From Spiribacter sp. 1M189 (GTDB lineage: Bacteria > Pseudomonadota > Gammaproteobacteria > Nitrococcales > Nitrococcaceae), in assembly GCF_040838345.1 (NCBI RefSeq), contig NZ_JBAKFF010000001.1, forward strand, positions 992,001 through 1,056,000: a stretch of DNA of 64,000 nucleotides, read 5' to 3'. The position numbers and the translations under genes are program-made. Below, one piece after another: positions 28,022 to 43,653 of the stretch. The notes under the pieces are model-generated. The model was not told the origin of the DNA and searched no databases. It saw nothing but the letters and a program-made list of their open reading frames with translations. Numbering within the stretch: the first letter of the stretch is position 1; the number at the start of each line of letters is the position of its first letter.

Positions 28022-28033
28022 GGCCTCCTCCTC

Positions 28034-28050
28034 TGTCGCATTCTGCGACA
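28034..28050. promoter_or_regulatory. Palindromic activator-binding site (TGTCGCA-N3-TGCGACA)
   Basis: A perfect 7+3+7 palindrome, 12 bases upstream of the regulator's ATG and about 110 bases upstream of the -24 element of the divergent dehydrogenase. A degenerate second copy (TGTCTCA-ACC-CGGCACA, 28054-28070) is centred 20 bases away, i.e. about two helical turns, and a half site TGCGACA recurs at 28205-28211. Position fits an upstream activating sequence for the AcoR-like protein and autoregulation of its own gene. Confidence 0.75.
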
Positions 28051-28159
28051 GGTTGTCTCAACCCGGCACATTGGCCGGCGGACTCTGGCGGTCCGCTTAC
28101 TGATCAGCATCGCCCCAAAAAACGCTCATGACAAGGGTAGGCGCGTTGGCAGGCCATGC

Positions 28160-28174
28160 TGGCCCGGATCTTGC
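28160..28174 (+). promoter_or_regulatory. Sigma-54 (-24/-12) promoter of the aldehyde dehydrogenase
   Basis: TGGCCCG-GATC-TTGC matches the TGGCACG-N4-TTGC consensus at all but one specified base, with the exact GG-to-GC spacing. Transcription would start near 28186, leaving a leader of about 48 bases to the ATG at 28235. The divergent gene encodes a sigma-54 activator, which supports the call. Confidence 0.8.
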
Positions 28175-28234
28175 CATACCGGAGGGTGTCGGCCCATTCA
28201 TCGGTGCGACAACACGAACAACGGAGGAGAGAGC

Positions 28235-29755
28235 ATGATCTACGCAAATCCCGGTAGCAGTGACGCCATCGTCAGCTTCAAGACCCAGTACGGCAACTTC
28301 ATCGGTGGCGAGTGGAAGGCCCCGGTGGATGGCGAGTACTTCGAGAACCCCACACCGGTCACCGGCCAGACCTTCTGCAGCATCCCCCGCTCCAAGGCCG
28401 CCGACATCGAGCTCGCCCTGGACGCCGCCCACGCCGCCAAGGACGCCTGGGGAAAAACGCCGGTCGCTGAGCGCGCGGTCATTCTCAACCGCATCGCTGA
28501 TCGCATGGAGGAGAATCTCGAGAAAATCGCGGTCGCCGAAGCCTGGGAAAATGGCAAGCCTGTGCGTGAAACGCTGGCCGCCGACATCCCGCTAGCCATT
28601 GATCACTTCCGCTACTTCGCTGGCGTGATCCGCGCCCAGGAAGGCACGCTCGGCGAGCTGGACAACGACACCGTGGCCTATCATATCCATGAGCCACTGG
28701 GCGTGGTCGGGCAGATCATCCCCTGGAACTTCCCGATCCTCATGGCGACCTGGAAAATCGCACCGGCGCTCGCCGCTGGCAACTGCATCGTTTTGAAGCC
28801 CGCCGAACAGACACCGGCCAGCATCCTGCTGCTGGTGGAGATGATCGCCGATCTGCTGCCGGCCGGCGTACTCAACGTGGTCAACGGCTTCGGCGCCGAG
28901 GCAGGCAAGGCCCTGGCCTCGAATCCGCGCATCGCCAAGGTCGCGTTCACCGGCGAGACCACCACCGGGCGGCTGATCATGCAGTACGCCTCGGAGAACC
29001 TGATCCCGGTCACCCTGGAGCTGGGCGGTAAGTCGCCCAACGTCTTCTTCGAGGACTGCTTTGCCGCGGACGACGGCTTCCGGGAGAAGTCGCTCGAGGG
29101 CTTTGCCATGTTCGCCCTTAACCAGGGCGAGGTCTGCACCTGCCCGTCGCGGGCGCTCGTACAGAAATCGTTCTACGGCGATTTCATGGACGCCGCCCTT
29201 GATCGCGTCAGCCGTATCAAGACCGGCAATCCGCTTGACACCGACACGATGGTGGGCGCTCAGGCGTCGCGTGATCAGCTCGAGAAAATCCTCGCCTACC
29301 TCGATATCGGTAAGCAGGAGGGCGCGAAGGTGCTGGCCGGTGGCGAGCAGCTTCACCCGGAGGGTGATCTGGCAGGCGGGTTCTATGTCCAGCCCACGGT
29401 TTTCGAGGGCCACAACCGCATGCGGGTCTTCCAGGAGGAGATCTTCGGGCCGGTCGTCTCGGTCACCGACTTCAGCGACATGGATGATGCACTGGCGATC
29501 GCCAATGACACGCTCTACGGCCTGGGCGCCGGGGTCTGGTCGCGCAGCGCGCATACCACCTACCGCATGGGCCGCGGCATCCAGGCCGGTCGCGTCTGGA
29601 CCAACTGCTACCACCTCTACCCGGCGCATGCCGCGTTTGGCGGTTACAAGCACTCGGGTATCGGCCGCGAGAACCACCTCATGATGCTGGCGCACTACCA
29701 GCAGACCAAGAACCTGCTGGTCAGCTACAGCGAGGCACCGATGGGGCTGTTCTGA
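28235..29755 (+). CDS. exaC: NAD-dependent aldehyde (acetaldehyde) dehydrogenase
   Basis: Oxidises aldehydes, probably acetaldehyde, to the acid. The 506-residue protein resembles ExaC/AldB/Aco[20 protein letters not shown], the catalytic Glu in [13 protein letters not shown], and the nucleophile region [18 protein letters not shown] (Cys-x-Cys with an extra cysteine, as in this subgroup). The C-terminus has [10 protein letters not shown] and [13 protein letters not shown]. The ATG is preceded by GGAGGAGAGAGC. Its acetate product would be activated by the acetyl-CoA synthetase at 36.9 kb. Expression is probably sigma-54-dependent through the divergent AcoR-like protein. Confidence 0.92.
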
Positions 29756-30184: not shown

Positions 30185-31353
30185 CTGCCGGCGGCAAAGA
30201 AGGCGCGGATGCGTTCCACGGCCTCGGCGAGGCGGTCAGTGTCGGTGGTGTAGGCAAAACGCAGGTGGCGTTCCGGGGCAGTGCGCTCGAAGTCGAGTCC
30301 CGGGGTCACCGCGACGCCAGCCCGCTCCAGTAAATCCTCGGCCAGGGTAAAACTGTCATCGCACAGCGATGAGACATCGGCGTACAGATAGAAAGCGCCG
30401 GCGGGATCTCCCGGGATATGAAATCCCAGCGATCGAAGCGCTGGCAGGAGGAAGTCCCGGCGCTGACGGAACGCCTCGCGCCGGGATTCGAAGATCTCCA
30501 GCGCCCTGTCACTGAAGCAGGCAAGAGCGGCATGCTGCGCCGGTGTCGAAGCGCTGATGAACAGGTTCTGCATGAGCTTCTCCGCGACCGGCACCCATTC
30601 GGACGGAACCACCATCCAGCCCAGCCGCCATCCGGTCATGCCGAAATACTTCGAGAAGCTGTTGACCACCACCGCGTCCGGCGCATGCGCCACGGCCTGC
30701 GCCGGGTCCTCTCCATAGTGGAGGCCGTGGTAGATCTCGTCGACGATCAGACCGATGTGGCGGCGCCGCCCAAGCGCTGCAAGGCCCTGCAGGTCAGCCG
30801 CACTGGCCAGCGTGCCGGTCGGGTTGCCCGGCGAGCCAATCACCATGGCGGCCGTCGCATCATCGCAGGCTTCGGCCGCCAGACCCGGCGTGAGCTGGTA
30901 ATCGGTCCCGGCATCCACCCGTACGGCTCGGGGCACAGCGTCCACCAGCTCGACAAAATTGCGATTGCAGGGGTAACCCGGGTCGGGCAACAGGACATTG
31001 CGGCCGGGATCGGCCAGCATGGCGAGTGCCACCACCAACGCGCCGCTCGCGCCCGGAGTGATCAGAATACGCCCGGCATCCACGTCCAGCCCGTAGCGTG
31101 ACCGATAGTGGCCAGCGATGGCCTCCCGTAACGCCGGCAGACCCGCCGCCGGCAGATAACCGGTATGCCCGTGGGCCAGGGCCTGCTCACCGGCGAGTCG
31201 AACCGGCCCGGCGGTGGGAAAGTCCGGCTCGCCGATTTCCATGTGCACGATATCGCCGCCACGCGCCTCAAGCTCGCGGGCGCGGGCGAGCAGCGCCATG
31301 ACATGAAACGGCTGAATGCGATGACTGCGGGCGGAAAGCGGCGGGAGCGACAC
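30181..31353 (-). CDS. Pyridoxal-phosphate class I aminotransferase
   Basis: Fold-type I aminotransferase of 390 residues. PLP motifs: GYLPAAGLPALREAIA, ITPGASGALVVALAML, SPGNPTGT, VDEIYHGLHY and the Schiff-base lysine in NSFSKYFGMTGWRLGWMV. The GTG at 31353 (SLPPLSARSHRIQPFHVM) gives the usual N-terminus and is preceded by AGGGTCATC; a longer reading back to 31437 would run into the divergent gluQRS. It could serve aspartate, alanine or aromatic amino acids. No hisC-type gene is in the aromatic operon, so a role in aromatic transamination is possible but unproven. It converges on the DUF779 gene with a four-base overlap. Confidence 0.85.
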   Translation of the reverse strand: MSLPPLSARSHRIQPFHVMALLARARELEARGGDIVHMEIGEPDFPTAGPVRLAGEQALAHGHTGYLPAAGLPALREAIAGHYRSRYGLDVDAGRILITPGASGALVVALAMLADPGRNVLLPDPGYPCNRNFVELVDAVPRAVRVDAGTDYQLTPGLAAEACDDATAAMVIGSPGNPTGTLASAADLQGLAALGRRRHIGLIVDEIYHGLHYGEDPAQAVAHAPDAVVVNSFSKYFGMTGWRLGWMVVPSEWVPVAEKLMQNLFISASTPAQHAALACFSDRALEIFESRREAFRQRRDFLLPALRSLGFHIPGDPAGAFYLYADVSSLCDDSFTLAEDLLERAGVAVTPGLDFERTAPERHLRFAYTTDTDRLAEAVERIRAFFAAGS

Positions 31354-31426
31354 GATGACCCTAAAGGTTGGCCCAGAAAACCGCAGTGTAGCAACCGTGG
31401 CAGCGGGATGACGCGGATGCGCTAAC

Positions 31427-32332
31427 ATGCCCACCATGAGCGGTGAGTCCTACATCGGGCGGTTTGCGCCGAGCCCCACGGGTCCGCTGCACCAGGGTTC
31501 GGTCATCGCGGCCCTGGCCAGCTACCTGGATGCCCGGGCCGCCGGCGGTACATGGCGGCTGCGGATCGATGACGTGGACAGCGGCCGTGCCCGTGACGAT
31601 GCCGCAGCGGACATACTCCGTACGCTTGAGACACTCGGCCTGCACTGGGACGGCCCGGTCCAGTACCAGGCGCCGCGTCGTGACCACTACCAGGATGCCC
31701 TGGAGCGCCTGCGAGACGCTGGCCTGGCTTACCCCTGTGCATGTACCCGCCGCGAGATCGCTGCGGTCGCTTCGGTGGGCCCGGCCGGGATGATCTATCC
31801 GGGCACCTGCCGGGATGGCCTGCCGGCCGGGCGCGGCGCCCGTAGCTGGCGATTCGCCATGGCGCCCGGCGAACTGTCCTTCCACGATCGCCATGCAGGC
31901 GAGCAGTCACTGGAGCCCGCCTCCTGCATTGGCGATTTCGTCATTCGCCGGGGCGATGGCCTGCATGCCTACCATCTCGCCATGGCGGTCGATGACGGCG
32001 ACCTTGGGGTCACTGACGTGGTCCGCGGCGGCGACCTGCTACCGGCAACCTTCCCGCAACTCGCCCTCCAGCGATCGCTTGACCTTCCGACACCCCGTTA
32101 TCTGCATCTGCCGATCGCCGTCGGCCCCGGCGGCCATAAGCTGAGCAAGACCAATGGTGCTGCGCCGGCCGATCTGACCGATCCGGGGGGCACGCTCATG
32201 GACGCATTGACCTTTCTCGGTCAGGCGCCGCCAGCGGAAATCGCCGGCGCGCCGGTTGGGGAAGTGCTCGCCTGGGCAGTCGCCCATTGGCGGCCAGCGC
32301 ATATCCCCCGATCTTCCGAGGTGCGGGTATAA
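31427..32332 (+). CDS. gluQ: Glutamyl-Q tRNA(Asp) synthetase
   Basis: A truncated glutamyl-tRNA synthetase paralogue that attaches glutamate to queuosine at the tRNA-Asp wobble base. It has 301 residues, lacking the anticodon-binding domain. Motifs: IGRFAPSPTGPLHQGSVIAA (HIGH variant), the zinc-ligand region CACTRREI...YPGTC and KLSKTNGA (KMSKS variant). A second ATG at 31436 (MSGESYIGRF) is an equally good start. In Pseudomonas the same order gluQRS-small protein-cbrA-cbrB is found, downstream of dksA; dksA is not here. Confidence 0.93.
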   Translation: MPTMSGESYIGRFAPSPTGPLHQGSVIAALASYLDARAAGGTWRLRIDDVDSGRARDDAAADILRTLETLGLHWDGPVQYQAPRRDHYQDALERLRDAGLAYPCACTRREIAAVASVGPAGMIYPGTCRDGLPAGRGARSWRFAMAPGELSFHDRHAGEQSLEPASCIGDFVIRRGDGLHAYHLAMAVDDGDLGVTDVVRGGDLLPATFPQLALQRSLDLPTPRYLHLPIAVGPGGHKLSKTNGAAPADLTDPGGTLMDALTFLGQAPPAEIAGAPVGEVLAWAVAHWRPAHIPRSSEVRV

Positions 32333-32351
32333 CGACAGCCGCGCGGCCTGT

Positions 32352-32366
32352 GATACCGTTGGTAAC
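32352..32366. promoter_or_regulatory. 15-bp palindromic site, copy 1 (before small protein-cbrA-cbrB)
   Basis: GATACCGTTGGTAAC, a near-palindrome matching GTTACC-NTT-GGTAAC, lies between the gluQRS stop and the GGGGAGGAG ribosome site of the next gene. The flanking bases extend it (CTGT...ACAG). Similar sites lie before acsA (36861) and before the symporter (38889). Confidence 0.6.
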
Positions 32367-32384
32367 AGGTTGGGGAGGAGAGCA

Positions 32385-32579
32385 ATGCCCAAACCGAGTG
32401 CGACCAACGGATCGGTCAGCCTTTTTCTGCTGGGCGTGGGGCTCGTTTTATTCGTCTCACCGCTCACGATCTGGTGGCTGGACCGAACACCGCCCTGGTA
32501 CATGCCCTTCGTGGCATGGTTCGGATTCATCCTGCTGATCGCCCTCAGCATCGGCCGGCGGGGACGACATGACCTTTAG
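32385..32579 (+). CDS. Small two-helix membrane protein upstream of cbrA
   Basis: A 64-residue protein starting MPKPSATNGSVSLFLLGVGL after a strong ribosome site (GGGGAGGAGAGCA). Two hydrophobic helices (about 11-31 and 40-57) flank SPLTIWWLDRTPPWYMPFV, and the tail GRRGRHDL is basic, so both ends are likely cytoplasmic. It overlaps cbrA by 11 bases. A small gene at this position is also known in Pseudomonas between gluQRS and cbrA. Function unknown; a role as an accessory to CbrA is suggested only by position. Confidence 0.85.
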   Translation: MPKPSATNGSVSLFLLGVGLVLFVSPLTIWWLDRTPPWYMPFVAWFGFILLIALSIGRRGRHDL

Positions 32580-35511
32580 TCTCGCCGGGCTTTTCATCGC
32601 CGCGATCGCGTATCTGTCGCTGCTTTTTCTCATCGCCCATGCCAGCGAGCGGGGCTGGATTCCGGAGACCCTCGTCCGGCATCCAGCCGTCTATGTACTC
32701 TCGCTCGGTGTCTACGCCACCACCTGGAGTTACTACGGCAGCGTCGGGTTTGCGGCCAACGCCGGCCTCACCTACGCCACGATCTACATCGGGGTCACCC
32801 TCGCCTTCGCCCTGACGCCGGTACTGCTGATGCCACTCCTGCGGCTTACCCGCCGCCATCAGCTCACATCCATTGCCGATCTTTTCGCATTCCGTTTCGA
32901 CAGCCGGGCCGCGGGGATTCTGGTGACGTTGATGCTGCTCACCGGCAGCCTCCCGTATCTGGCCCTGCAGATCCGGGCGGTGTCCGAATCCACGCAGGTG
33001 CTCAGTGGCGACTCCCCGCCCCATCTGGTGGCCGTGGTGTTCTGTGTCATGGTCACGGTATTCGCCATCATCTTCGGCGCGCGTCATGTCACGCCGCGCG
33101 AAAAACACAGTGGCCTGGTGGCTGCGATCGCTTTCGAATCGCTGGTCAAGCTTGCGGCGCTGCTGCTGGTGGCCTGGCTGGCCATCGAGCTTGCCTTTGG
33201 TGGGCCCGCCGGTCTCGGGGACTGGCTGGCGGACCACCCCGACCGGCTGGAGGCCTTCCATGCAGGCGCCGACGCCCCGGAGTGGACCGGTCTGATCTTC
33301 CTCGCCTTCGCCGCGGCATTTCTCCTGCCCCGGCAGTTTCACATGCTCTTCACCGAAAACCTCCAGGACCAGGGACTACGCACGGCGAGCTGGGGTTTCC
33401 CGCTCTTCCTGCTTCTGCTGGCGACGGCCATCCCGCCCATTCTGTGGGCCGGGCAGGCACTGGGGCTGTCGACGCCGGCGGATTACACCGTGCTCGGCGT
33501 TGCCGGCGAGAGCGGATCGGCGGCCGTGGTGCTGTTCACCTACCTCGGAGGCATCTCCGCGGCGAGCGCCATGATCATCGTCTCGACACTGGCGCTCTCC
33601 TCGATGTGCCTGAATCATCTGGTGCTGCCGGTGATGCGGATCACCGGTCGACAGGATCTCTACCAGACACTGCGCTGGACGCGGCGCGCGCTGATCGCGG
33701 CGGTCATCGCCGCGGGCTATTTCTTCTACCTGAGCCTCGAGCGGACCGAGGGGCTTGTCTCCTGGGGGCTGATTTCGTTTCTCGCCATGGCCCAGCTCGT
33801 CCCGGGTGTGCTGGCCGTACTCTACTGGCCCGGCGCGACTCGTCAGGGATTCGTCAGTGGCCTCGTGGCAGGTGGCGTCATCTGGGGCGTGGCAGGTCTG
33901 CTCCCGGCGCTCAGCACCATGGGTCCGATCCGCATCATTGGCCTGGATCTGAGCGTCGCCCAGTCGGCAGCCCATTTCGGCGCCCTCGCCTTCTGGTCTG
34001 TAGCCGCCAATACCCTGGTGTTCACCGCGGTTTCCCTGATCACCCGCCAGGATCCGCGCGAGAGCGAGGCGGCCTCTGCCTGCCGTGAGGTCAGCACCCG
34101 AATCCCCGCGGGTTCGGTGATTGCCGAGTCCCCGACACAGATGGTCGATCAGCTGGCGCCCGTGACCGGTCTGCCGGCCGCACGGGCCGAGGTCGCCAAG
34201 GGCCTCGAGGACCTGCAACTGGCCTGGACGGAAAACCGACCGGATCGGCTGCAGCAGTTACGCGAACAGATCCGGCGCAACCTGTCCGGCATGATGGGAC
34301 CGGTTCTGGCGCGGGATATCGTCGACGAGTGCCTGCGGCTGGATGCCGACAGCCGGGGTGCCATTGCCCAGAACGTACGCATCATCGAAGAGCGGCTCGA
34401 ACAGGCTCGGGGCGGATTCCGCGGAATCGCCGCGGAACTCGATGCCCTGCGGCGTTATCATCGCCAGATCCTCGAGGACCTGCCACTGGGAGTCGTGGCG
34501 GTGACGCCGGCCGGCCGGATCGCCCGCTGGAACCCGGCCATGCACCAGATGACAGCAATCAGCGCCGGTCGCGCACTGGGGCAAGCCGTTGCCGAGTTAC
34601 CGGAACCCTGGGGTGAGTTACTCAAGGGCTTTGCCGACGAGGATGAAAGCCATGCCTACAAGCGGCCGGTGATGCTCGCCGGCGGCACGCGCTGGATGAG
34701 CCTGCACAAGGCCATGATCGGAGACCCGGCGGGTACCCTGAATGGTGACCGGCTGTTACTCATGGAGGATGTGACCGACGTCCAGCGCCTGGAGAACGAG
34801 CTGGCGCACAGCGAGCGGCTGGCCTCCATCGGCCGTCTGGCGGCCGGCGTCGCCCATGAGATCGGTAACCCCATCACCGGCATCGCCTGCCTGGCCCAGG
34901 AACTGCGCGAGGACCGGGCCGATGATCATGCCCGCCAGATACTCGAGCAGACCGAACGCATCAGCCATATCGTCCAGACACTGGTGGACTACGCGCATGC
35001 CGGTCGTGGCGAGGCCTCGACCCGACCCCAGGCCACGGCCCTGCGGCCGGTGGTGGAGGAAGCCGAGCGCCTGGTCCGGCTCAACCCCCGCTCCCGTGGG
35101 ATCATTTTCAGCCCGGAGTTGCCGGGCGACGTTGCGGTCATGGCCGATCACCAGCGTCTCGTGCAGGTGCTGGTGAACCTCTACAGCAATGCCGTGGATG
35201 CCTGCGATCCCGGGGGGCGGATCGCCACGGCGGTCCGGCTGCAGCGCGACGCGGTCACCCTGCGTATTCTGGATACGGGGCACGGGATACCCTCTGGCAT
35301 CCGCGACAGGGTGCTGGAGCCCTTCTTCACGACCAAGACCCTTGGCCACGGTACCGGCCTCGGTCTGGCGCTTGCCCAGAACATCATCACCAACTACGGC
35401 GGCAGTCTGCGCATCCAGCCACGACGCGGCCGCAGTGGCGGCACGGAGGTCATGATCCGCCTGCCACGCGCTCAGATCATCGACACGGAGGTTGAGCCAA
35501 TCCATGGCTGA
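32569..35511 (+). CDS. cbrA: Sensor histidine kinase with SSS-type transporter domain, CbrA
   Basis: A 980-residue chimeric sensor. The first ~490 residues are a sodium/solute symporter-like domain of 12-13 helices (begins MTFSLAGLFIAAIAYLSLLF). A linker and coiled region (about 540-640) are followed by a PAS-like domain (ILEDLPLGVVAVTPAGRIARW). The kinase core has His763 in AAGVAHEIGNPITG, an N-box NLYSNAVDAC, and G-boxes DTGHGIP and GHGTGLGLALAQNI. With CbrB it controls carbon/nitrogen-source use in Pseudomonas; histidine transport has been attributed to CbrA there. The start overlaps the upstream small gene, and cbrB starts inside its last codons. Confidence 0.92.
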   Translation: MTFSLAGLFIAAIAYLSLLFLIAHASERGWIPETLVRHPAVYVLSLGVYATTWSYYGSVGFAANAGLTYATIYIGVTLAFALTPVLLMPLLRLTRRHQLTSIADLFAFRFDSRAAGILVTLMLLTGSLPYLALQIRAVSESTQVLSGDSPPHLVAVVFCVMVTVFAIIFGARHVTPREKHSGLVAAIAFESLVKLAALLLVAWLAIELAFGGPAGLGDWLADHPDRLEAFHAGADAPEWTGLIFLAFAAAFLLPRQFHMLFTENLQDQGLRTASWGFPLFLLLLATAIPPILWAGQALGLSTPADYTVLGVAGESGSAAVVLFTYLGGISAASAMIIVSTLALSSMCLNHLVLPVMRITGRQDLYQTLRWTRRALIAAVIAAGYFFYLSLERTEGLVSWGLISFLAMAQLVPGVLAVLYWPGATRQGFVSGLVAGGVIWGVAGLLPALSTMGPIRIIGLDLSVAQSAAHFGALAFWSVAANTLVFTAVSLITRQDPRESEAASACREVSTRIPAGSVIAESPTQMVDQLAPVTGLPAARAEVAKGLEDLQLAWTENRPDRLQQLREQIRRNLSGMMGPVLARDIVDECLRLDADSRGAIAQNVRIIEERLEQARGGFRGIAAELDALRRYHRQILEDLPLGVVAVTPAGRIARWNPAMHQMTAISAGRALGQAVAELPEPWGELLKGFADEDESHAYKRPVMLAGGTRWMSLHKAMIGDPAGTLNGDRLLLMEDVTDVQRLENELAHSERLASIGRLAAGVAHEIGNPITGIACLAQELREDRADDHARQILEQTERISHIVQTLVDYAHAGRGEASTRPQATALRPVVEEAERLVRLNPRSRGIIFSPELPGDVAVMADHQRLVQVLVNLYSNAVDACDPGGRIATAVRLQRDAVTLRILDTGHGIPSGIRDRVLEPFFTTKTLGHGTGLGLALAQNIITNYGGSLRIQPRRGRSGGTEVMIRLPRAQIIDTEVEPIHG

Positions 35512-36838
35512 AGTACTCATCATCGAGGACGAGACCATCATCCGGGATGCCATCCAGCGCCATCTGTCGCGCCATGGCATGGGCGTGAGCACCGCCGAGT
35601 CGCTGGAGGAGGCACTGGACCAGGGCCCCCTCGCCAACCATGACCTTATTCTCGCGGATATTCGCCTGCCCGGGCGCAGCGGCATGGAGGTCATCGACGA
35701 GGCCGGGCCGGTCCCCGTGATCATCATGACCAGCTATGCCAGCATCCGCTCGGCGGTGGACGCCATGCGCCGCGGTGCCGTCGACTACATCGCCAAGCCG
35801 TTCGATAACGAGGAGCTCCGGCTGACCGTCGACCGGGCCCTGCGGGAGCATGCGCTGCAGCGTCAGAACGCTGCGCTGCGCGCCCAGGTCAATGCCGATT
35901 ATCCGGTCAACGGCATCGTCGGTCGCAGCCCCGCGATGGGCCAGGTCTTCGAGCGTGTCGACCGCGTGGCGCCCACCAACACCACCGTCCTCATCCTGGG
36001 CGAATCGGGCACCGGCAAAGAGCTGGTGGCCCGCGCGCTGCACGAGCAGAGCAATCGCCGCGACGGTCCCCTCATCGCGGTGAATTGCGCCGCCATCCCG
36101 GAATCGCTGATCGAAGCGGAGCTGTTCGGCCATGAAAAAGGGGCGTTCACGGGCGCTGACGCCACTCGGGAGGGACTCGTCGAATCGGCAAGCGGCGGTA
36201 CGCTGTTCCTCGACGAGATCGCTGAGCTCCCCGCCGCTGCCCAGGCACGGTTGCTGCGCGTGCTCCAGGAAGCGGAGATTCGGCGCGTGGGGGCATCCCA
36301 CTCGCGGCAGGTCGACATCCGCCTGGTGGCAGCCACCCATCGCGACCTGCAGACACTGGTGAGCCGGGGACAATTCCGCGAAGACCTGTATTTCCGCATC
36401 AATGTCATGGAAATACGGTTGCCACCGCTACGTGAGCGCGGCGAGGATATACCGGAATTGGCTCGATTCCTGCTTGAAAAGGCGTGTCGACGTCTGAATC
36501 GTCCGGCGATGGAATTCAGTGAAGAAGCATTGAGGCAGATCATGGATCATGGCTGGCCAGGTAACGTCCGCGAGCTTGAGAATGTGATAGAACGCGCGGT
36601 GATCCTCGCTGATGGCGGAACTGTCACGACGGATGATCTGGCACTGCCGGGTCGGACGGCACCGGCCGATAACAATGCGCTGAACCTCTCGCTTGAGGAT
36701 TACTTTCGGGAATTCGTGCGCACTCACGAGGGGGAACTCACCGAGACCGAACTTGCCCGACGCCTGGGCATCAGCCGCAAGGCGCTGTGGGAGAAACGCC
36801 AGCGGCTTGGAATCCAGCGTCGACGCCAAGCAGGATAG
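35504..36838 (+). CDS. cbrB: NtrC-type sigma-54 response regulator, CbrB
   Basis: A 444-residue activator. The receiver domain (residues 3-115) has acidic pocket E8-D9, phospho-acceptor D52 in [10 protein letters not shown], and K102-type lysine in YIAKPFDN. The AAA+ domain has Walker [17 protein letters not shown], the sigma-54 motif GAFTGA and Walker [14 protein letters not shown]. The C-terminal Fis-like helix-turn-helix is [20 protein letters not shown]. The ATG at 35504 was preferred over a TTG at 35492 that directly abuts the GGAGG. It ends 55 bases before acsA. No crcZ-like RNA gene is evident after it. Confidence 0.92.
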
Positions 36839-36860
36839 GGGGCGCGCCCCGATACAGGAC

Positions 36861-36875
36861 GTTACATTCGGTAAC
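36861..36875. promoter_or_regulatory. 15-bp palindromic site, copy 2 (before acsA)
   Basis: GTTACATTCGGTAAC: perfect GTTAC/GTAAC arms around five bases, three bases before the AGGAGGAG ribosome site of acsA. As RNA it would be a 5-bp hairpin. It is one of three related sites in this cluster. Confidence 0.6.
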
Positions 36876-36893
36876 CTAGGAGGAGAAAACGGC

Positions 36894-38831
36894 ATGGCCG
36901 CAGAAAAACAGTATCCGGTACCGCCGGAGACCGCTGAGCACGCACTGCTCACCCGCGCAGAATACGATCGGATGTACCGGCAGTCGCTGGATGACCCGGA
37001 CACGTTCTGGAGTGAACAGGCGGAGCAGTTCATCACCTGGTTCCGGAAATGGGACCGGGTGAGCAATAACGACCTCGGCAAGGGTCAGATCCGCTGGTTC
37101 GAGGGTGCCAGGCTGAACGTCAGCTACAACTGCCTGGATCGTCATCTGGAGACCCATGGTGACCGCAACGCCATCATCTGGGAGGGTGATGAGCCCGGCA
37201 ACACCCGGCACATCACCTACCGCGAGCTCCATGAGGAAGTCTGCCGGCTCGCCAATGTGTTGAAGGATCGCGGCGTGTCGAGGGGTGACCGCGTGTCCAT
37301 CTACATGCCGATGATCCCGGAAGCGGTGGTCGCCATGCTGGCCTGCACCCGTATCGGCGCGGTGCACTCCATCGTCTTCGGCGGCTTCTCGCCCCATGCA
37401 CTGCGCGACCGGATCGAGGATGCCGACTGCCGGACGGTGATCACCGCCGACCAGGGCCTGCGCAGCGGTAAGCCCGTTCCCCTGAAGGAAAACGTGGAGA
37501 AGGCCATCGACGGGCTGGATACCGTCCACACCGTGGTCACGGTCCGTCATACGGGCAACGAGGTGAGCTGGAATCCCGATCGTGACATCTGGTACCAGGA
37601 GTCGCTCGCCGAGGCGTCACCGGTGTGTGAGCCCGAGGAGATGGATGCCGAGGATCCGCTCTTCATCCTGTATACCTCCGGCTCCACGGGCAAGCCGAAG
37701 GGCGTGCTCCACACCACCGGTGGCTACCTGCTCCAGGCATCGATGACCTTCAAGTACGTCTTCGACTACCACGATGGTGAGGTCTACTGGTGCACCGCCG
37801 ATGTCGGCTGGGTCACCGGACACAGCTATATCGTCTACGGCCCGCTCTCCAACGCGGCCACCAGCCTGGTGTTCGAGGGCGTGCCGACCTACCCCGACGC
37901 CGGCCGCTTCTGGCAGGTCATCGACGATCACAACGTCAACATCTTCTACACCGCGCCAACGGCCATTCGCTCACTCATGGGCCAGGGCGAGGAGCTGGTG
38001 AAGAAGTACTCCCGGAAGAGCCTTCGCATCCTCGGCACCGTGGGCGAGCCCATCAACCCCGAGGCCTGGGAGTGGTACTACCGCGTAGTGGGCGACCAGC
38101 GCTGCCGCATCGTTGACACCTGGTGGCAGACGGAGACCGGCGCCATCATGATCTCGGCGCTGCCCGGCGCCATCGATCTGAAGCCGGGTTCAGCCACCCT
38201 GCCCTTCTTCGGTGTCGAACCGCAGCTGGTGGATAACGAGGGCAACATCCTCGAGGGCGCGACCGACGGCAACCTCTGTATCGCCCGTGCCTGGCCCAGC
38301 ATGATGCGCACCATCTATGGCGACCATGAGCGCTTCATGAACACCTACCTCACCACTTACGCCGGTAAGTATTTCACCGGTGACGGCGCCCGCCGGGATG
38401 AGGATGGCTATTACTGGATCACCGGCCGCGTCGACGATGTGCTCAACGTCTCGGGACACCGTATGGGGACCGCGGAGATCGAGAGCGCGCTGGTGCTGCA
38501 TGACGCCGTGGCCGAGGCCGCGGTGGTGGGTTATCCGCATGATCTCAAGGGCCAGGGCATCTATTGCTATGTCACGCTGGTCAAGGGCGTGGAGCCGAAC
38601 GATGGGCTCCACAAAGAGCTCACCGACCTCGTGCGCAAGGAAATCGGTCCGATCGCCAAACCGGACGTGATTCAGTGGGCACCCGGTCTGCCCAAGACCC
38701 GATCCGGCAAGATCATGCGCCGCATCCTGCGCAAGGTGGCGACCAACGAGCTCGACAGCCTGGGGGATACCAGCACGCTGGCGGATCCCACGGTGGTGGA
38801 TGAGCTCATCACCAACCGCGCCAATCAGTAG
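36894..38831 (+). CDS. acsA: Acetyl-CoA synthetase (AMP-forming)
   Basis: Activates acetate to acetyl-CoA through acetyl-AMP. The 645-residue protein shows [21 protein letters not shown] (P-loop-like A3 motif; 21 residues, core [10 protein letters not shown]), [33 protein letters not shown] and the C-terminal [13 protein letters not shown] with the lysine that Pat/CobB-type acetylation controls in other bacteria. The ATG follows AGGAGGAGAAAACGGC. It sits directly after cbrB and before an acetate-type symporter, consistent with a carbon-scavenging block that also takes the product of the aldehyde dehydrogenase at 28.2 kb. Confidence 0.96.
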
Positions 38832-38841
38832 CGGATCCGAT

Positions 38842-38866
38842 GACGGCGGCCGATTCGGCCGCCGTC
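38842..38866 (+). terminator. Hairpin after acsA
   Basis: GACGGCGGCCG and CGGCCGCCGTC form a perfect 11-bp stem with an ATT loop, 10 bases past the acsA stop. Only GTTA follows instead of a T-run, so intrinsic termination may be incomplete. Confidence 0.55.
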
Positions 38867-38888
38867 GTTACCGTCCGTCACACTTCGA

Positions 38889-38905
38889 CGTTACCCTTGG
38901 TAACG
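38889..38905. promoter_or_regulatory. Palindromic site, copy 3 (before symporter operon)
   Basis: CGTTACC-CTT-GGTAACG is a perfect 7+3+7 palindrome and the best copy of the motif. It lies about 185 bases upstream of the DUF4212 gene and 72 bases upstream of a sigma-54-like element at 38977, a suitable position for an activator site. A half site CGTTACCG is present at 38866-38873. Confidence 0.7.
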
Positions 38906-38976
38906 AATTCATGTCCAGGATCTGCACCGCGCGGGCAAGAGCCGGGACAATCGGGGATCTCGACGGCGACGCGGGA

Positions 38977-38992
38977 TTGCACGATTCTTGCA
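38977..38992 (+). promoter_or_regulatory. Candidate sigma-54 promoter of the symporter operon
   Basis: TTGCACG-ATTC-TTGCA matches TGGCACG-N4-TTGCA at every specified base except the first G of the -24 GG. Spacing is exact. With a start near 39003 the leader would be about 85 bases. The remaining part of the 38832-39089 gap shows no other convincing promoter beyond a TATAAC near 39024 without a good -35. Confidence 0.5.
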
Positions 38993-39089
38993 TCAGGTTA
39001 AGGCAGACGGACGCGGATTCGTCGTATAACAAGGCGGCAGGTCAATCGGACACTGCCACCGGTGTGACATCTGCAGGAGGAGCTAAAGC

Positions 39090-39356
39090 ATGGCTTCAAG
39101 TAAGGAAGAGGCGGCAATCGCCTATTGGAAGGAGAACGTCAGACTGTTGATCACGCTGCTGATCATCTGGTTTGTCGTCTCCTACGGACTGGGTATCATT
39201 CTCGCCCCGGCACTCAACAGCATCGTAATCGCTGGTTACCCCCTCGGGTTCTGGTTCGCCCAGCAGGGCGCCATTTATGCGTTTATCGTCCTGATTTTCG
39301 TCTACGTGTTCAAAATGAATGCGCTGGATCGGAAATACGACGTGCACGAAGAATAA
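39090..39356 (+). CDS. Sodium/solute symporter small subunit (DUF4212)
   Basis: An 88-residue membrane protein with two helices (about 17-40 and 55-76) and the family-defining PLGFWFAQQGAIYAF and MNALDRKYDVHEE. DUF4212 proteins occur in tandem with a large VC_2705-type sodium:solute symporter subunit, which follows here after 15 bases. GCAGGAGGAGCTAAAGC precedes the ATG. It probably assists assembly or activity of the large subunit. Confidence 0.92.
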   Translation: MASSKEEAAIAYWKENVRLLITLLIIWFVVSYGLGIILAPALNSIVIAGYPLGFWFAQQGAIYAFIVLIFVYVFKMNALDRKYDVHEE

Positions 39357-39371
39357 CGAGGGGAATTCGAC

Positions 39372-41126
39372 ATGGATCTGGCACTCACTACCTATCTGAT
39401 CGTCGGCGCCACCTTCGTGCTCTACATCGGTATCGCGATCTGGGCCAAGGCCGGCACCACCGGCGAATTCTATGTCGCGGGCAAAGGGGTCAACCCGATT
39501 GCCAACGGCATGGCCACCGCGGCGGACTGGATGTCCGCGGCTTCCTTCATCTCCATGGCCGGCCTCATCGCCTTCCTGGGCTATGACGCGTCGGTCTACC
39601 TGATGGGCTGGACCGGCGGCTACGTGCTCCTGGCCCTGCTCCTGGCGCCTTATCTGCGCAAGTTCGGGAAGTTCACGGTCCCCGAGTTCATCGGTGACCG
39701 CTTCTACTCCAAGACCGCCCGCGTCATCGCCGTCATCGCCCTGATCGTCGCCTCGATCACCTACGTGATCGGGCAGATGAAGGGCATCGGCGTCGCGTTC
39801 TCGCGGTTCCTAGAGACGAGCTACGAGATGGGGCTTTTCATCGGCATGGCGATCGTCTTCTTCTATGCCGTCATCGGCGGCATGAAGGGCATCACCTACA
39901 CGCAGATCGCCCAGTACTGCGTCATGATCTTCGCCTATACCATTCCGGCGGTGTTCATCTCGCTGGCCATCACCGGCAATCCGCTGCCCCAGCTCGGACT
40001 GGGCGGTACCGTCTCGGATGGCACGTACCTGCTGAACAAGCTGGACAACATTCTGGTGGATCTCGGCTTCTCCCAGTACACGGCGATGAAGGGAAGCATG
40101 CTCAACATGTTCTTCCTGACCATGTCGCTGATGATCGGCACGGCGGGCCTGCCTCACGTCATCGTGCGTTTCTTCACGGTGCCGAGGGTGCGGGATGCCC
40201 GCCTGTCCGCTGGATGGACGCTGATCTTCATTGCCATCCTCTACACGACGGCCCCGGCAGTCGGCGCCATGTCCTTCTACAACCTGATCAATACGGTTCA
40301 GCCGGGCCCGATCGGGTCGGAAGACGGCAACCTCCTCTATGAGGATGTGCCGGGCTGGTTCTCGCGCTGGCAGGAGACCGGACTCCTCCAGTGGGAGGAC
40401 AAGAACGATGACGGCCGTATCCAGTACTACGACTCGAATAACCCGGCCTTTGCCCCGACGGCTGCGGAGTACGGCTGGGAAGGCAACGAGCTGACCGTCG
40501 ACCGCGACATCATGGTCATGGCCAACCCGGAGATCGCGCAGTTGCCCAACTGGGTGATCGCGCTAACGGTGGCCGGCGGCCTGGCAGCGGCGCTGTCTAC
40601 GGCAGCAGGCCTTCTTATGGCAATCTCTTCGTCGATATCCCATGACTTGATCAAGGGTGTCATCAACCCGGGGATAAGTGAAAAGAGCGAGTTGTTAGCC
40701 GCTCGAATCGCCATGGGCTCAGCGGTCCTTGTAGCCGGCTACCTGGGTCTGAATCCACCAGGATTTGCGGCACAGGTCGTGGCACTGGCCTTCGGACTGG
40801 CGGCATCCTCGCTGTTCCCGGTCCTCATGCTCGGTATCTTCAGCCGCCGCATGAATAGTGCCGGGGCCATCGCGGGCATGCTCTCGGGCCTCACCTTCAC
40901 CCTGATCTACGTGTTCACCTACAAGGGATGGTTCTTCATCCCGGGCACGAACACGCTGCCGGACACGCCGGAGCACTGGTTCATGGGTATTGGGCCACAG
41001 GCCATTGGCGCCATCGGCGCGTTGATCAACGTGGTTGTGGCCACCCTGGTATCCCGTGCGACGGCACCGCCGCCGAAGGATATCCAGGAGCTGGTGGAGA
41101 GCATCCGCGTGCCACGCGCGAGCTGA
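39372..41126 (+). CDS. actP: Sodium:solute symporter, VC_2705 family (acetate/monocarboxylate type)
   Basis: A 584-residue SSS-family transporter with about 13 helices. The N-terminal part has FYVAGKGVNPIANGMATAADW and SFISMAGLIAFLGYD, and later GTAGLPHVIVRFFTVP, as in ActP-like acetate permeases. An extended loop (about 310-385) contains DKNDDGRIQYYD, resembling an EF-hand calcium loop. The downstream conserved helix is LAAALSTAAGLLMAISSSISHDL. The gene name is given by similarity and acsA proximity; the transported substrate (acetate, lactate, pyruvate, propionate) is not determined. An intrinsic terminator follows. Confidence 0.88.
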   Translation: MDLALTTYLIVGATFVLYIGIAIWAKAGTTGEFYVAGKGVNPIANGMATAADWMSAASFISMAGLIAFLGYDASVYLMGWTGGYVLLALLLAPYLRKFGKFTVPEFIGDRFYSKTARVIAVIALIVASITYVIGQMKGIGVAFSRFLETSYEMGLFIGMAIVFFYAVIGGMKGITYTQIAQYCVMIFAYTIPAVFISLAITGNPLPQLGLGGTVSDGTYLLNKLDNILVDLGFSQYTAMKGSMLNMFFLTMSLMIGTAGLPHVIVRFFTVPRVRDARLSAGWTLIFIAILYTTAPAVGAMSFYNLINTVQPGPIGSEDGNLLYEDVPGWFSRWQETGLLQWEDKNDDGRIQYYDSNNPAFAPTAAEYGWEGNELTVDRDIMVMANPEIAQLPNWVIALTVAGGLAAALSTAAGLLMAISSSISHDLIKGVINPGISEKSELLAARIAMGSAVLVAGYLGLNPPGFAAQVVALAFGLAASSLFPVLMLGIFSRRMNSAGAIAGMLSGLTFTLIYVFTYKGWFFIPGTNTLPDTPEHWFMGIGPQAIGAIGALINVVVATLVSRATAPPPKDIQELVESIRVPRAS

Positions 41127-41177
41127 GACTGACGGTGCGGTGCGTCGATGGAATGACGCACCGAGCCGCTAAACTCG

Positions 41178-41213
41178 AAAGCCCCGGTCACCGTCAGGTG
41201 CCGGGGCTTTTTA
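41178..41213 (+). terminator. Intrinsic terminator after the symporter
   Basis: AAAGCCCCGG pairs with CCGGGGCTTT around an inner CACC-GTCA-GGTG hairpin (one bulged T), followed by five Ts. The A-run on the left could let it act weakly on the opposite strand for the convergent DUF294 gene, which ends at 41254. Confidence 0.9.
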
Positions 41214-41253
41214 ATGGCGCGGCGGGGTCACTCGTTGGGACGCAGGGCCCGCC

Positions 41254-43158
41254 CTAGAGCTGAAAGCGCAGCTCGAGTTTTTTCTGTAGCCTACGGGCCT
41301 CGCGGAAGGCCTCCTTGAGAATCCGGCGATCCATCGGGTTGAGCTCATCAGGATCAAGCCGGTTGCCCATGGCCTCGCCCGCCGCTGCCTGACGCTGATG
41401 CTCCCGCATGCGCAGCAGCTGCACAAAGGCGAACGAGCGCTCGAAGGCCCCGGCATCCTCGGCACTGAGCACCCCGGCCTCTACAAGGCCACGGAAACGG
41501 GCCGGCGTATTGGATTCAACGATGCCGGCCTGCAGCGCCATGACCCGTGCCGCATCGACAAAGGGCGTCAGGCCCCGAACCTTGAGATCGAGCCGGTTGA
41601 CGCCGTCATCGTCCTTGTCCGTTACGAAGTCGCGGAAGACGCCCAGCGGCGGTTTGATGGCGAGGCAGTTGCCCGCCAGGGTATGCAGGAAGACACTGTT
41701 ACCGGCGGCGATTTCGACCACCCGCTGGTGAAGGGCCTCACCCGCGGCGAGATCGCCCCAGATCGGACGAAAATCGAAATAAATCGTGGAGTTGAGCAGG
41801 TTCTCCGGCGTGGCGCTGCCGACCATGCCGCGGAAGGTGTCCTCCCACTCGGCCAGGCTGAGGCAGAGATTGGGGTTGCTGGCCATGACATTGCCGGTGC
41901 AGAGCGTGAACCCGCAGGCATCCAGCACCTCATTGATACGCCAGGCCGTGGGCAGCAGGCGCTCCCGGACTGTCTCCGGCGACTCGGCACCCGGATCGAA
42001 CAGGATGCCGTTATCCTGGTCCGTCACCCGCGTCTGCTCGCTGCGCCCCTCACTGCCGAAAGCGATCCAGGTGAATGGCACGCCAGGATCCCCCCGCTCT
42101 TCCAGCACCAGTTCAATGGCACGGGTGACCGTTCGGTCATTCAGGAGGGTGATGATCCGTGTGATCTGCTCCACGCCCGCGCCATGGGCCATCATGCTGT
42201 CAATCAGCGCGCCCACCTGGCTGCGGGCATGGACCAGGGCGTCAACGCCCTCGGCACCCGTGATCGAGCGGGTGAGGTGAACCAGATTGATGCGCTGGAG
42301 CGCGAAGATGTCCCGCTCGGATATCACGCCGGCAAGCCGTCCCGCATGATCGGTGATGATCATGTGCCGGATGCGATGCCGCGCCATCTCGACGATGGCC
42401 TCAAAGGCGTAGGTGTCGGTATCGAGGGTCAACGGATCGCCGGTCATGACCGTGCTGAGCGGCTCATCAAGGTCACTGCCCCCGGCCACCACGGCACGCA
42501 GGTCGTGCAGGGTAAAGATCCCCCTGGGACGGTTATCATCATCGGTGACCAGCACACTGCCCACCTTGCGCTCATGCATCGCCTCCACGGCCCCGCGTAC
42601 CGGTGTACCCGGGGCGCAGGTCAGCGGGTCACCCTTCATGAGATCGCCAAGCGGCGTATCGAGGGTGGAATCGCCGCCTAGATTGCCGGCGGCATGCTGC
42701 TGGATATCCTGCTGGACCTGGTCGAGCAGGCTGCTCACGCCCCGCAGGCAGTAATCACGGAAAACGGCGCTCTCACTGATGAGATGCTCGAATGCCGAGC
42801 GCGCCAGCCGCAGACAGCGCACATTGGTGCCGGCCCGGTAGACCGTTCGCGTCGCCCGCTGACCGATCATCGCAGCCATGGGGAAGTTCTCGCCCGTCTC
42901 GAGCTGAAAGCGCTCCACGCCGGATTCGCCACCGCCCGGCCGCTCGGCATCGACCCGACCCTCAACGATCACATAGAAGTGCGGCGCCCGGCCCGCGGCC
43001 GGCTCGAGGATGACCGTCCCGGCGGTGTAGTCGCGGAGTTCGCAATGCTCGAGGAAGTATCGCTGGAGGCCTTTGGGTAGCCGGTCGAACGGGGCGTTAT
43101 CCTTGAGGAACTCCCGGCCCACGGCCGTGGCATCGGTGCCCGCGTTGGCGCCAACCAT
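41254..43158 (-). CDS. cNMP-binding/CBS/DUF294 putative nucleotidyltransferase
   Basis: A 634-residue multidomain protein. Domain order: cyclic-nucleotide-binding-like domain (about 20-145; FYVIVEGRVDAE, GENFPMAAMIG), a CBS pair (about 170-290; SVLVTDDDNRPRGIFTLHDL, HMIITDHAGRLAGVISERDI), then a DUF294 nucleotidyltransferase-like domain with the motif AFGSEGRSEQTRVTDQDNG (GS...DxD, the pol-beta/GlnD-type metal site) and a C-terminal DUF294 helical domain. Such proteins are thought to be GlnD-like signal transducers, but no substrate is known. It commonly neighbours acetate-type symporters and DnaQ-like exonucleases, as here. Confidence 0.88.
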   Translation of the reverse strand: MVGANAGTDATAVGREFLKDNAPFDRLPKGLQRYFLEHCELRDYTAGTVILEPAAGRAPHFYVIVEGRVDAERPGGGESGVERFQLETGENFPMAAMIGQRATRTVYRAGTNVRCLRLARSAFEHLISESAVFRDYCLRGVSSLLDQVQQDIQQHAAGNLGGDSTLDTPLGDLMKGDPLTCAPGTPVRGAVEAMHERKVGSVLVTDDDNRPRGIFTLHDLRAVVAGGSDLDEPLSTVMTGDPLTLDTDTYAFEAIVEMARHRIRHMIITDHAGRLAGVISERDIFALQRINLVHLTRSITGAEGVDALVHARSQVGALIDSMMAHGAGVEQITRIITLLNDRTVTRAIELVLEERGDPGVPFTWIAFGSEGRSEQTRVTDQDNGILFDPGAESPETVRERLLPTAWRINEVLDACGFTLCTGNVMASNPNLCLSLAEWEDTFRGMVGSATPENLLNSTIYFDFRPIWGDLAAGEALHQRVVEIAAGNSVFLHTLAGNCLAIKPPLGVFRDFVTDKDDDGVNRLDLKVRGLTPFVDAARVMALQAGIVESNTPARFRGLVEAGVLSAEDAGAFERSFAFVQLLRMREHQRQAAAGEAMGNRLDPDELNPMDRRILKEAFREARRLQKKLELRFQL

Positions 43159-43202
43159 GCGCGTCTCCTGGAAAAATCAGCCGCTTCGGTCGACAGAGTA
43201 CC

Positions 43203-43233
43203 TCGACAAACCCCGACCGTAATAGCCTATACT
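43203..43233 (+). promoter_or_regulatory. Candidate sigma-70 promoter of the receiver gene
   Basis: TATACT at 43228-43233 (five of six to consensus) with TCGACA at 43203-43208 as a five-of-six -35, though the spacer is 19 bases. A second TCGACA is at 43189-43194, 14 bases further upstream, giving a direct repeat that might be an operator. Confidence 0.45.
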
Positions 43234-43278
43234 GGAACTAAAACGAGGAGGAGGCAGCATCGCTGATGCTGGATTGTC

Positions 43279-43653
43279 ATGTATAAGAATATTCTACTCG
43301 TGGATCACGAATCCAACCTCGCCACCGCCCTTCAGTTCCTGCTAGGCCATGCCGGATTCAATGTGACCCTGGCCGGCACCTATGCCGAGGCGGAGGCCGC
43401 TGCCGACAGGACGCGGCCAGACCTGGCGCTGATCGACGCCAGCCTGCCCGACCGCAGCGGCTACGATCTGTGCCAGGCCCTGGTGGCCCGACCGGGGCTA
43501 CAGCATCTCCCTGTTCTCATGCTGACCACCCGCAGCCTGCAGGTAGAGCGCGAGAAGGCACTATCCCTGGGTGCCACCGACTTCGTCGTCAAGCCGTTCG
43601 ATCCCGCGGCGATCCTGGGCCGGGTGCAGGAGCTGCTCCGAGAGGCTGCCTGA
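43279..43653 (+). CDS. Single-domain response regulator (CheY-like)
   Basis: A 124-residue receiver with no output domain. Phospho-acceptor D53 in LALIDASLPDRSG, conserved Thr/Ser in LMLTTRS and Lys in DFVVKPFDP are present. In the acidic pocket the usual DD pair is D9-H10 (LLVDHES), so metal binding may be altered. The strong GAGGAGGAG ribosome site lies 25 bases from this ATG and is better placed for a six-codon leader at 43266 that overlaps the start. The next gene starts three bases after its stop and encodes a degenerate sensor kinase. Confidence 0.87.
   Translation: MYKNILLVDHESNLATALQFLLGHAGFNVTLAGTYAEAEAAADRTRPDLALIDASLPDRSGYDLCQALVARPGLQHLPVLMLTTRSLQVEREKALSLGATDFVVKPFDPAAILGRVQELLREAA

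Follow-up and report, generated by a model that had tools for sequence, protein, structure and literature searches.

Palindromes in the cbr, acsA and symporter cluster

The window analysed here is a 64,000-nucleotide stretch of the Spiribacter sp. 1M189 genome (C1:992001-1056000), in which the genes for the kinase CbrA and the regulator CbrB, preceded by a small cbrX-like open reading frame (ORF), are followed by acsA and by a DUF4212/sodium symporter operon (Table 1). Palindromes of the form GTTAC-N5-GTAAC recur in the gaps of this cluster. They are a real, conserved operator, and the CbrB encoded in the same cluster is its likely binder.

A preliminary description had placed three 15-base sites at 32352, 36861 and 38890, and all three coordinates were verified exactly in the window sequence. 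Scanning the window with GTTACNNTNGGTAAC at up to two mismatches gave nine strand-wise matches, eight in the cluster and one at 653; this is far above the 0.68 expected, and nine was reached in 0/100 shuffles. The inventory of three was incomplete: the sites are real, but a fourth, weaker one, GTTACCGTCCGTCAC at 38867-38881, 23 base pairs (bp) ahead of site 3, had been overlooked, and site 1 is imperfect, its second base being A or C in every relative where the site was recovered. The genome-wide scan that the same description had recommended also bore it out. The exact pattern GTTACN5GTAAC occurs twice in the 1,946,169-base genome, both times in the cluster (36861 and 38890). Allowing up to one mismatch raises the number to eight, of which four lie in the cluster (32352, 36861, 38867 and 38890), while the control, the same pattern read backwards, has 57 sites in the same genome. 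The four non-cluster sites lie inside ORFs of 941, 706, 225 and 207 amino acids, which were called mechanically, the two shorter ones being weak evidence of coding.

The order gluQ-cbrA is also seen in the loci L010-L013 and L017. The window CbrA is 46-47% identical to CbrA of the Pseudomonas group (L011 and L013) over residues 1-967, and the Pfam SSF model did not reach E 0.001 on it. CbrB is 53-56% identical to CbrB of six Pseudomonas-group, Gilvimarinus and Cellvibrionaceae loci. Pfam and NCBIfam searches gave no match for the cbrX-like ORF. The VC_2705-family symporter is, judged by its neighbourhood, a probable acetate-type importer. A known RNA family at the palindromes was considered and rejected, since an Rfam scan of 31000-41500 at E 0.1 gave no match there or after cbrB; one sub-threshold hit lay elsewhere. 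Apart from the cluster, at 26138-29755, a minus-strand sigma-54-activator-like gene adjoins a plus-strand aldehyde-dehydrogenase-like ORF (identities assigned by eye).

Table 1. Genes, palindromes and predicted promoter element of the cluster, in window coordinates.
Feature	Position	Strand	Basis or remark
gluQ, tRNA glutamyl-Q synthetase	31427..32332	+	NCBIfam TIGR03838 above cut-off; upstream neighbour as in Pseudomonas
Site 1, GATACCGTTGGTAAC, proposed CbrB operator before cbrX and proposed autorepression site	32352..32366	.	overlaps extended -10-like TGaTACCGT at 32351-32359
cbrX-like small ORF, 64 amino acids	32385..32579	+	overlaps cbrA by 11 nucleotides; named by position
cbrA, SLC5-type transporter domain, PAS and histidine kinase	32569..35511	+	PAS/HisKA/HATPase by Pfam; alignment to CbrA
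cbrB, receiver, sigma-54 AAA+ (GAFTGA) and helix-turn-helix (HTH)	35504..36838	+	Pfam domains, alignment
Site 2, GTTACATTCGGTAAC	36861..36875	.	exact palindrome, one of two in genome; 18 nucleotides 5' of acsA start codon
acsA, acetate--CoA ligase	36894..38831	+	NCBIfam TIGR02188 above cut-off
Site 3a, GTTACCGTCCGTCAC, weaker tandem palindrome	38867..38881	.	23 bp from 3b
Site 3b, GTTACCCTTGGTAAC, proposed CbrB upstream activating site	38890..38904	.	centre 80 bp from sigma-54 box
Putative sigma-54 promoter box, TTGCACGATTCTTGCA	38977..38992	+	12.7 of 19.3 bits, shuffle p ~0.005
DUF4212 small subunit, sodium/substrate symporter	39090..39356	+	PF13937, TIGR03647
VC_2705-family sodium/solute symporter, large subunit	39372..41126	+	TIGR03648, 848 bits against a cut-off of 321

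Association with cbrAB and the candidate binder

The palindrome was followed through 59 genomes, comprising the own genome and members of its genus, family, order and class; acs neighbourhoods were taken from 40 relatives, plus further pieces. Forty-eight acs loci, window included, were tabulated, and a palindrome with at most one mismatch was counted as beside acs when it lay within 700 bp upstream or 250 bp downstream. Eleven of the 59 genomes (G003, G008, G030, G033, G043, G044, G046, G048, G050, G052 and G057) were not tabulated because acs or cbrAB was cut by contig ends or there was no close AcsA. The cbrAB-positive label includes G004, in which the AAA+ domain is missing, and G027, which has cbrAB on other contigs. 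By this count, the palindrome stood beside acs in 25/31 cbrAB-positive loci and in 0/17 cbrAB-negative loci (Fisher 2.4e-8). Among the untabulated genomes, it was found upstream of acs in G030, G033 and G043, and site 1 was found in G003, G008, G030, G033, G043 and G050; the short stretches examined of G048, G052 and G044 and of the cbr contig of G046 had no palindrome. In the draft G027, palindromes lie at acs and at a divergent symporter with cbrA and cbrB elsewhere in the assembly, which makes it an in-trans case. CbrB orthologues, at least 65% identical to that of the window, were present in 40/59 genomes, all in the window's own order.

Three side observations belong to this survey. Upstream of acs in L174, L178, L184 and L186 (G028, G034, G040 and G042), TGTTAC about 43-44 bp before GTAAC replaces the palindrome. 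G003 has two distinct cbrA copies on separate contigs (L216 and L194), 92% and 74% identical to the window's, and is possibly a mixed bin. Two loci on viral contigs with acs were uninformative.

Specificity was assessed in 41 loci (691,318 bases; 28 cbrAB-positive and 13 cbrAB-negative). In the cbrAB-positive loci the real half-site gave 62 hits at target positions and 18 elsewhere, the latter including palindromes at a distant third locus, while the cbrAB-negative loci had 0 target hits and 2 elsewhere. By comparison, 59 permuted half-sites averaged 0.37 target hits, with a maximum of 3. The spacing was equally strict: among exact GTTAC-Nx-GTAAC pairs in the cbrAB-positive loci, 25 had x=5, 19 of them at target gaps, and every other x from 0 to 20 gave 0 or 1 pair. 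Tandem palindromes recur in relatives, mostly 20-24 bp apart (31 bp in G027).

The preliminary description had mentioned GTTAC/GTAAC half-sites for Pseudomonas CbrB, and the published P. putida subsites, TGTTAC and GTAACA (PMC6296734), agree with it. The recognition helix of the window CbrB is nearly identical to LGVSRKCLWERRQRLGI of L011. Downstream of cbrB in five Pseudomonas-group, Gilvimarinus and Cellvibrionaceae loci the half-sites start 20-22 bp apart, the second reading GTAACG in L013, whereas the window arms start 11 bp apart, about one turn closer than the Pseudomonas-group arms. P. putida CbrB was reported to be monomeric on its non-palindromic subsites (PMC6296734); the palindrome here is compact, and binding as a dimer is therefore predicted. 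Since the palindromes co-occur with cbrAB and contain the published half-site, the recognition helices are nearly identical and suitably spaced sigma-54 boxes are found (below), CbrB is likely to be the protein that binds them.

Promoter context and competing explanations

Sigma-54 boxes were scored with an assumed matrix with a maximum of 19.3 bits. Thirty-four palindromes located upstream of acs (60-420 bp) or just after it were scored, and 27/34 were followed within 150 bp by a box scoring 9 bits or more, boxes being shared by tandem copies. The distance from palindrome centre to box start was 60-105 bp in 24/27 and 48-133 bp overall; examples are TGGCAAGCGGCTTGCT (G023), TGGCACGGCTTTCGCT (G039) and TTGCACGATTCTTGCA (window 38977). 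Upstream of acs, the best scores averaged 8.9 bits in the 28 cbrAB-positive loci and 4.2 bits in the 13 cbrAB-negative loci. In the window, the -24/-12 box of the symporter operon is at activating-site distance from site 3b (Table 1), and symporter boxes of 12.7-16.1 bits are kept in G000, G006, G009, G010 and G011.

Several other genera have the third site in the gap between a DUF294-like gene and a divergent SSS-like gene. In G028 and G037 the neighbour hits the SSS superfamily model, though below the cut-off, and in G032, G046 and G053 the SSS likeness rests on partial matches of 24-25%; the neighbouring ORFs of G032, G053 and G040 had no NCBIfam match at E 1e-30. Because the neighbours in other genera are SSS-like, the operator may follow transport function rather than one transporter family. 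The site after acs precedes a small receiver protein in G023, G041 and G049, and in G023 also an exonuclease-domain gene. Beside the symporter in the window, at 41254-43653, there are a DUF294/CBS/cyclic-nucleotide-type gene and a small receiver protein, which are kept in both cbrAB-positive and cbrAB-negative loci of the same genus.

Site 1 differs from the other sites in sequence and in context. Aligned copies were obtained from 25 of the 28 cbrAB-positive loci; G025 and G040 have no site 1 at up to one mismatch, and that of G027 is on another contig. All 25 read TG[AC]TAC-N5-GTAAC, the eighth palindrome base being T in 25/25 and the seventh in 23/25, whereas at the other sites the second base is T in 45/50 and the centre is free. 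The second base is likewise A or C in eleven further copies, that of G027 included. The conserved letters contain TGnTACnTT, an extended -10-like element, and relatives have a weaker TCGCC block at -35 spacing (17 bp) from it. A sigma-54 box of at least 9 bits follows 4/25 site-1 copies, against 27/34 palindromes beside acs, and a sigma-54 activating site was therefore rejected for site 1. A site-1-like TGNTACNTT was not found upstream of cbrA in the five Pseudomonas-group stretches read. Since the conserved extended -10-like element overlaps the operator, site 1 is probably a repressor rather than an activator site, lying over a putative core promoter.

Site 2, in the 55-bp gap between cbrB and acsA, is the least conserved, being exact in G000 and G010 and with one mismatch in G004. 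A 13.3-bit sigma-54 match at -435 of acsA falls inside the cbrB coding sequence and may be codon-driven; with none within 250 bp, a sigma-54 promoter for the window acsA was rejected. Since there is no such box and site 2 is missing from five of eight same-genus loci (below), site 2 cannot, from the sequence, be read as a normal activator site, and acsA may be transcribed by read-through from cbrXAB.

On this evidence we consider it probable, with some reserve, that the palindromes are CbrB operators serving sigma-54 activation at the symporter (and at acs in many relatives) and autorepression at cbrXAB. One or two palindromes, mostly 60-105 bp ahead of the sigma-54 promoter of the DUF4212/symporter operon, would serve as an upstream activating site from which phosphorylated CbrB would activate this operon, and acs in many relatives, through sigma-54. 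CbrB would shut its own operon as well, sigma-70 RNA polymerase being blocked at the imperfect copy before cbrXAB. CbrA itself may respond to acetate or a similar small carboxylate. The preliminary description had proposed autoregulation by CbrB together with control of the acetate genes. Co-occurrence, half-site, helix and boxes agree with it, but the autoregulatory site looks like that of a repressor, and site 2 cannot be read as a normal activator site. In relatives the palindrome beside acs is conserved, whereas site 2 is only poorly kept within the genus.

Several observations weigh against the CbrB reading. Six cbrAB-positive loci have no palindrome beside acs (G028, G029, G031, G034, G040 and G042); among these exceptions, G028, G031, G034 and G042 have site 1 and a palindrome at a distant third locus, G040 has the third locus only, and G029 has site 1 only. 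The AcsA tree needs at least six changes of the cbrAB label, three of them forced by starred branches, and of its three independent pairs about two agree, none opposes and about one shows no difference, which leaves the sign test uninformative. Relatedness limits the co-occurrence test to that extent. G001, which lacks cbrAB, has an exact palindrome, GTTACCCCTGGTAAC (L218, 5321), just behind the gene of an NtrC-type regulator, 41% identical, that adjoins a kinase. G004 keeps the three sites though its CbrB has no AAA+ domain: its cbrB (L151) is one open frame encoding receiver and HTH, 174 residues from the second codon, in an 86%-complete draft where an assembly fault is possible. No box of at least 9 bits follows the acs-downstream palindromes of G004, G005, G023, G041 and G049. 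The symporter box TTGCACGATTCTTGCA has T for the first G of the -24 GG, and those of G004 and G005 score only 6.7 bits. Site 2 is absent in 5/8 same-genus cbrAB-positive loci, window included, and all eight lack a strong sigma-54 box in the 250 bp next to acs (highest score 7.3 bits, in G004); the window acsA has none in that range, its best score being 1.5 bits. The -35-like TCGCC is not in the window, where AACGAC stands at 32331-32336.

The eight acs loci and G004, with its receiver-HTH CbrB and weak symporter box, would fit a CbrB that in this genus works without sigma-54 at most sites, as a repressor or in a sigma-70-type manner, the boxes being relics. However, the window CbrB has an intact AAA+ domain with GAFTGA, rpoN is present in 14/14 genus members, G004 included, the symporter box is retained in five genomes, and the AAA+-less case itself comes from an incomplete draft; we regard this explanation as unlikely. 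The palindrome might instead be shared or owned by another NtrC-type regulator, as the arrangement in G001 could indicate, and the own genome encodes four regulators besides CbrB that match CbrB at E<=1e-60. Yet acs-side palindromes are missing from all 17 cbrAB-negative loci even though 16/17 such genomes have NtrC-type paralogues, which makes other ownership very improbable.

A LuxR-type acetate regulator encoded elsewhere (CrbR/ErdR) had been named in the preliminary description as an alternative. Both acs and actP are CrbR targets in Pseudomonas and Vibrio (PMC5715377), and the own genome has four GerE-type genes, two of them with a receiver domain. No CrbS-like SLC5 hybrid kinase was found there, however, with 14/16 first-look candidates scored and CrbR itself not searched for; the two matches at E<=1e-20 in the CrbS-type search were CbrA and a kinase whose alignment was confined to residues 594-969. 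Published ACTU sequences (e.g. TACTACCATCGTCGAAT, PMC5715377) have a different, even-spaced core and, taken as listed, do not fit the window palindromes, no ACTU model having been run over the window, and G036 and G038 possess a CrbS-like kinase with no palindrome at acs. CrbR/ErdR is accordingly disfavoured as the binder, and we give it very little weight. The same description had suggested that copies 1 and 2 act as RNA hairpins, and both do end 18 nucleotides before start codons with strong ribosome sites. The site-1 stem, though, is broken at its second base, where A or C faces A in all 25 aligned and 11 further copies, with these letters kept, and site 3, like most acs sites in other genera, is located upstream of the promoter predicted there. 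Together with the lack of an Rfam match at the sites (E 0.1), the conserved non-pairing position and the promoter position leave the hairpin, for which no folding was run, hardly credible.

The CbrA pocket and comparison with known systems

A list of the P. putida CbrA residues touching histidine in simulations has been published (PMC13022988), and its numbering fits L013 at 11/11 positions and L011 at 10/11, with an inferred offset of 2. In 27 CbrA of the window's order, Y51, W55, Y75, K196 and F406 are kept, whereas S53, A56, C74, S251 and H257 are replaced by T, S, I, A and R in 27/27, and F248 by A, S or T, so that six of the eleven positions are changed in every sequence aligned. Positions 56, 74, 251 and 257 are also variable among five Pseudomonas-group, Gilvimarinus and Cellvibrionaceae sequences. 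At 53, 56, 74, 251 and 257, six CrbS-like kinases taken from the same loci carry T, T, I, A and R, and at 248 they carry S. The identity of the SLC5 part is 47% to Pseudomonas-group CbrA and 37-38% to CrbS. In 19/481 columns, six CbrA of this order agree with CrbS but not with L011/L013, and 4/11 contact positions are among them (hypergeometric 0.0005); 38 columns are of the opposite kind and include 0 of the 11. The polarity of the pocket change rests on CrbS as outgroup. Because CrbS-like residues occupy histidine-contact positions, an acetate-type ligand is supported, and CbrA may sense acetate or a similar small carboxylate. What CbrA senses is still called elusive in PMC13022988.

A 2022 review described CbrAB as unique to Pseudomonadaceae (PMC8871633), and a CbrA/CbrB homologue has been mentioned in another gammaproteobacterium (PMC4136832). 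In the open-licence literature, so far as its text was available, neither a palindromic CbrB site nor direct CbrB control of acs was found, which is weak evidence of absence; the available text of a sigma-54 regulon study (PMC12316311) does not mention acetyl-CoA synthetase, acsA or CbrB. The present arrangement places CbrAB outside the family to which the review restricts it, in another order than that of Pseudomonas, where its operator is compact and its acetate regulon small. It suggests that control by CbrAB, although described as peculiar to Pseudomonas, extends to acetate use in another bacterial group and acts on it more directly there. The effect of CbrB on acsA being already known, the comparison suggests that direct promoter control of acs and the symporter would be the new element. 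The simplicity of the system makes operator spacing, autorepression and the ligand of the SLC5 sensor each testable, and the comparison bears on what CbrA senses. We also put forward, tentatively and with slightly more doubt than confidence, a wider scenario: outside the Pseudomonas group, CbrAB would be an acetate (short-carboxylate) sensor with a CrbS-type pocket, CbrB driving acs and symporters through sigma-54; histidine sensing, spread sites and the CrcZ detour of Pseudomonas would be derived; and in G004 the AAA+ domain would have been deleted with the operators kept.

NtrC-type sigma-54 upstream activating sites are tandem palindromes about two turns apart before a -24/-12 box. The sites described here have a like tandem spacing and lie mostly 60-105 bp from the box, but their half-site sequence differs, and they are also used over the -10 of the regulator's own operon. 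The CrbS/CrbR switch likewise targets acs and an acetate symporter through an SLC5/STAC-class kinase (PMC5715377, PMC5436829), and its pocket residues T53, I74, A251 and R257 are common to the window CbrA; it differs in its LuxR-type regulator, its motif and its hybrid kinase, which was not found in the own genome. RpuS/RpuR of Sinorhizobium (PMC9100948) also places an SLC5/STAC kinase over a monocarboxylate symporter, although its substrate is pyruvate and the system is a different one.

Expression of acsA and good growth on acetate require cbrB in P. aeruginosa, where CrcZ lifts the repression that Crc exerts at a CA motif of the acsA mRNA; that study reports having found no CbrB sites upstream of CbrB-only genes (PMC3480352). 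While acsA is thus reached there through CrcZ/Crc, CbrB-type operators stand here at the acs and symporter promoters themselves. The closest relative is CbrXAB of Pseudomonas and Azotobacter (PMC8871633, PMC6296734, PMC6591292, PMC13022988), with which the cluster shares the order gluQ-cbrX-cbrA-cbrB, the overlap of cbrX with cbrA, the SLC5-kinase, the NtrC-type GAFTGA regulator, GTTAC/GTAAC half-sites, a near-identical helix and a target promoter directly 3' of cbrB. In Pseudomonas that target is crcZ, whereas here acsA follows and no CrcZ-type RNA was matched (Rfam, E 0.1). The non-palindromic F/R subsites of Pseudomonas, about 20-25 bp apart, contrast with a single palindrome that uses N5 only. 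Finally, feedback on cbrX is described as running through Hfq/Crc in P. putida (PMC6591292), whereas direct autorepression is predicted here, and six of the eleven histidine-contact positions reported for P. putida CbrA are changed in the CbrA of this order.

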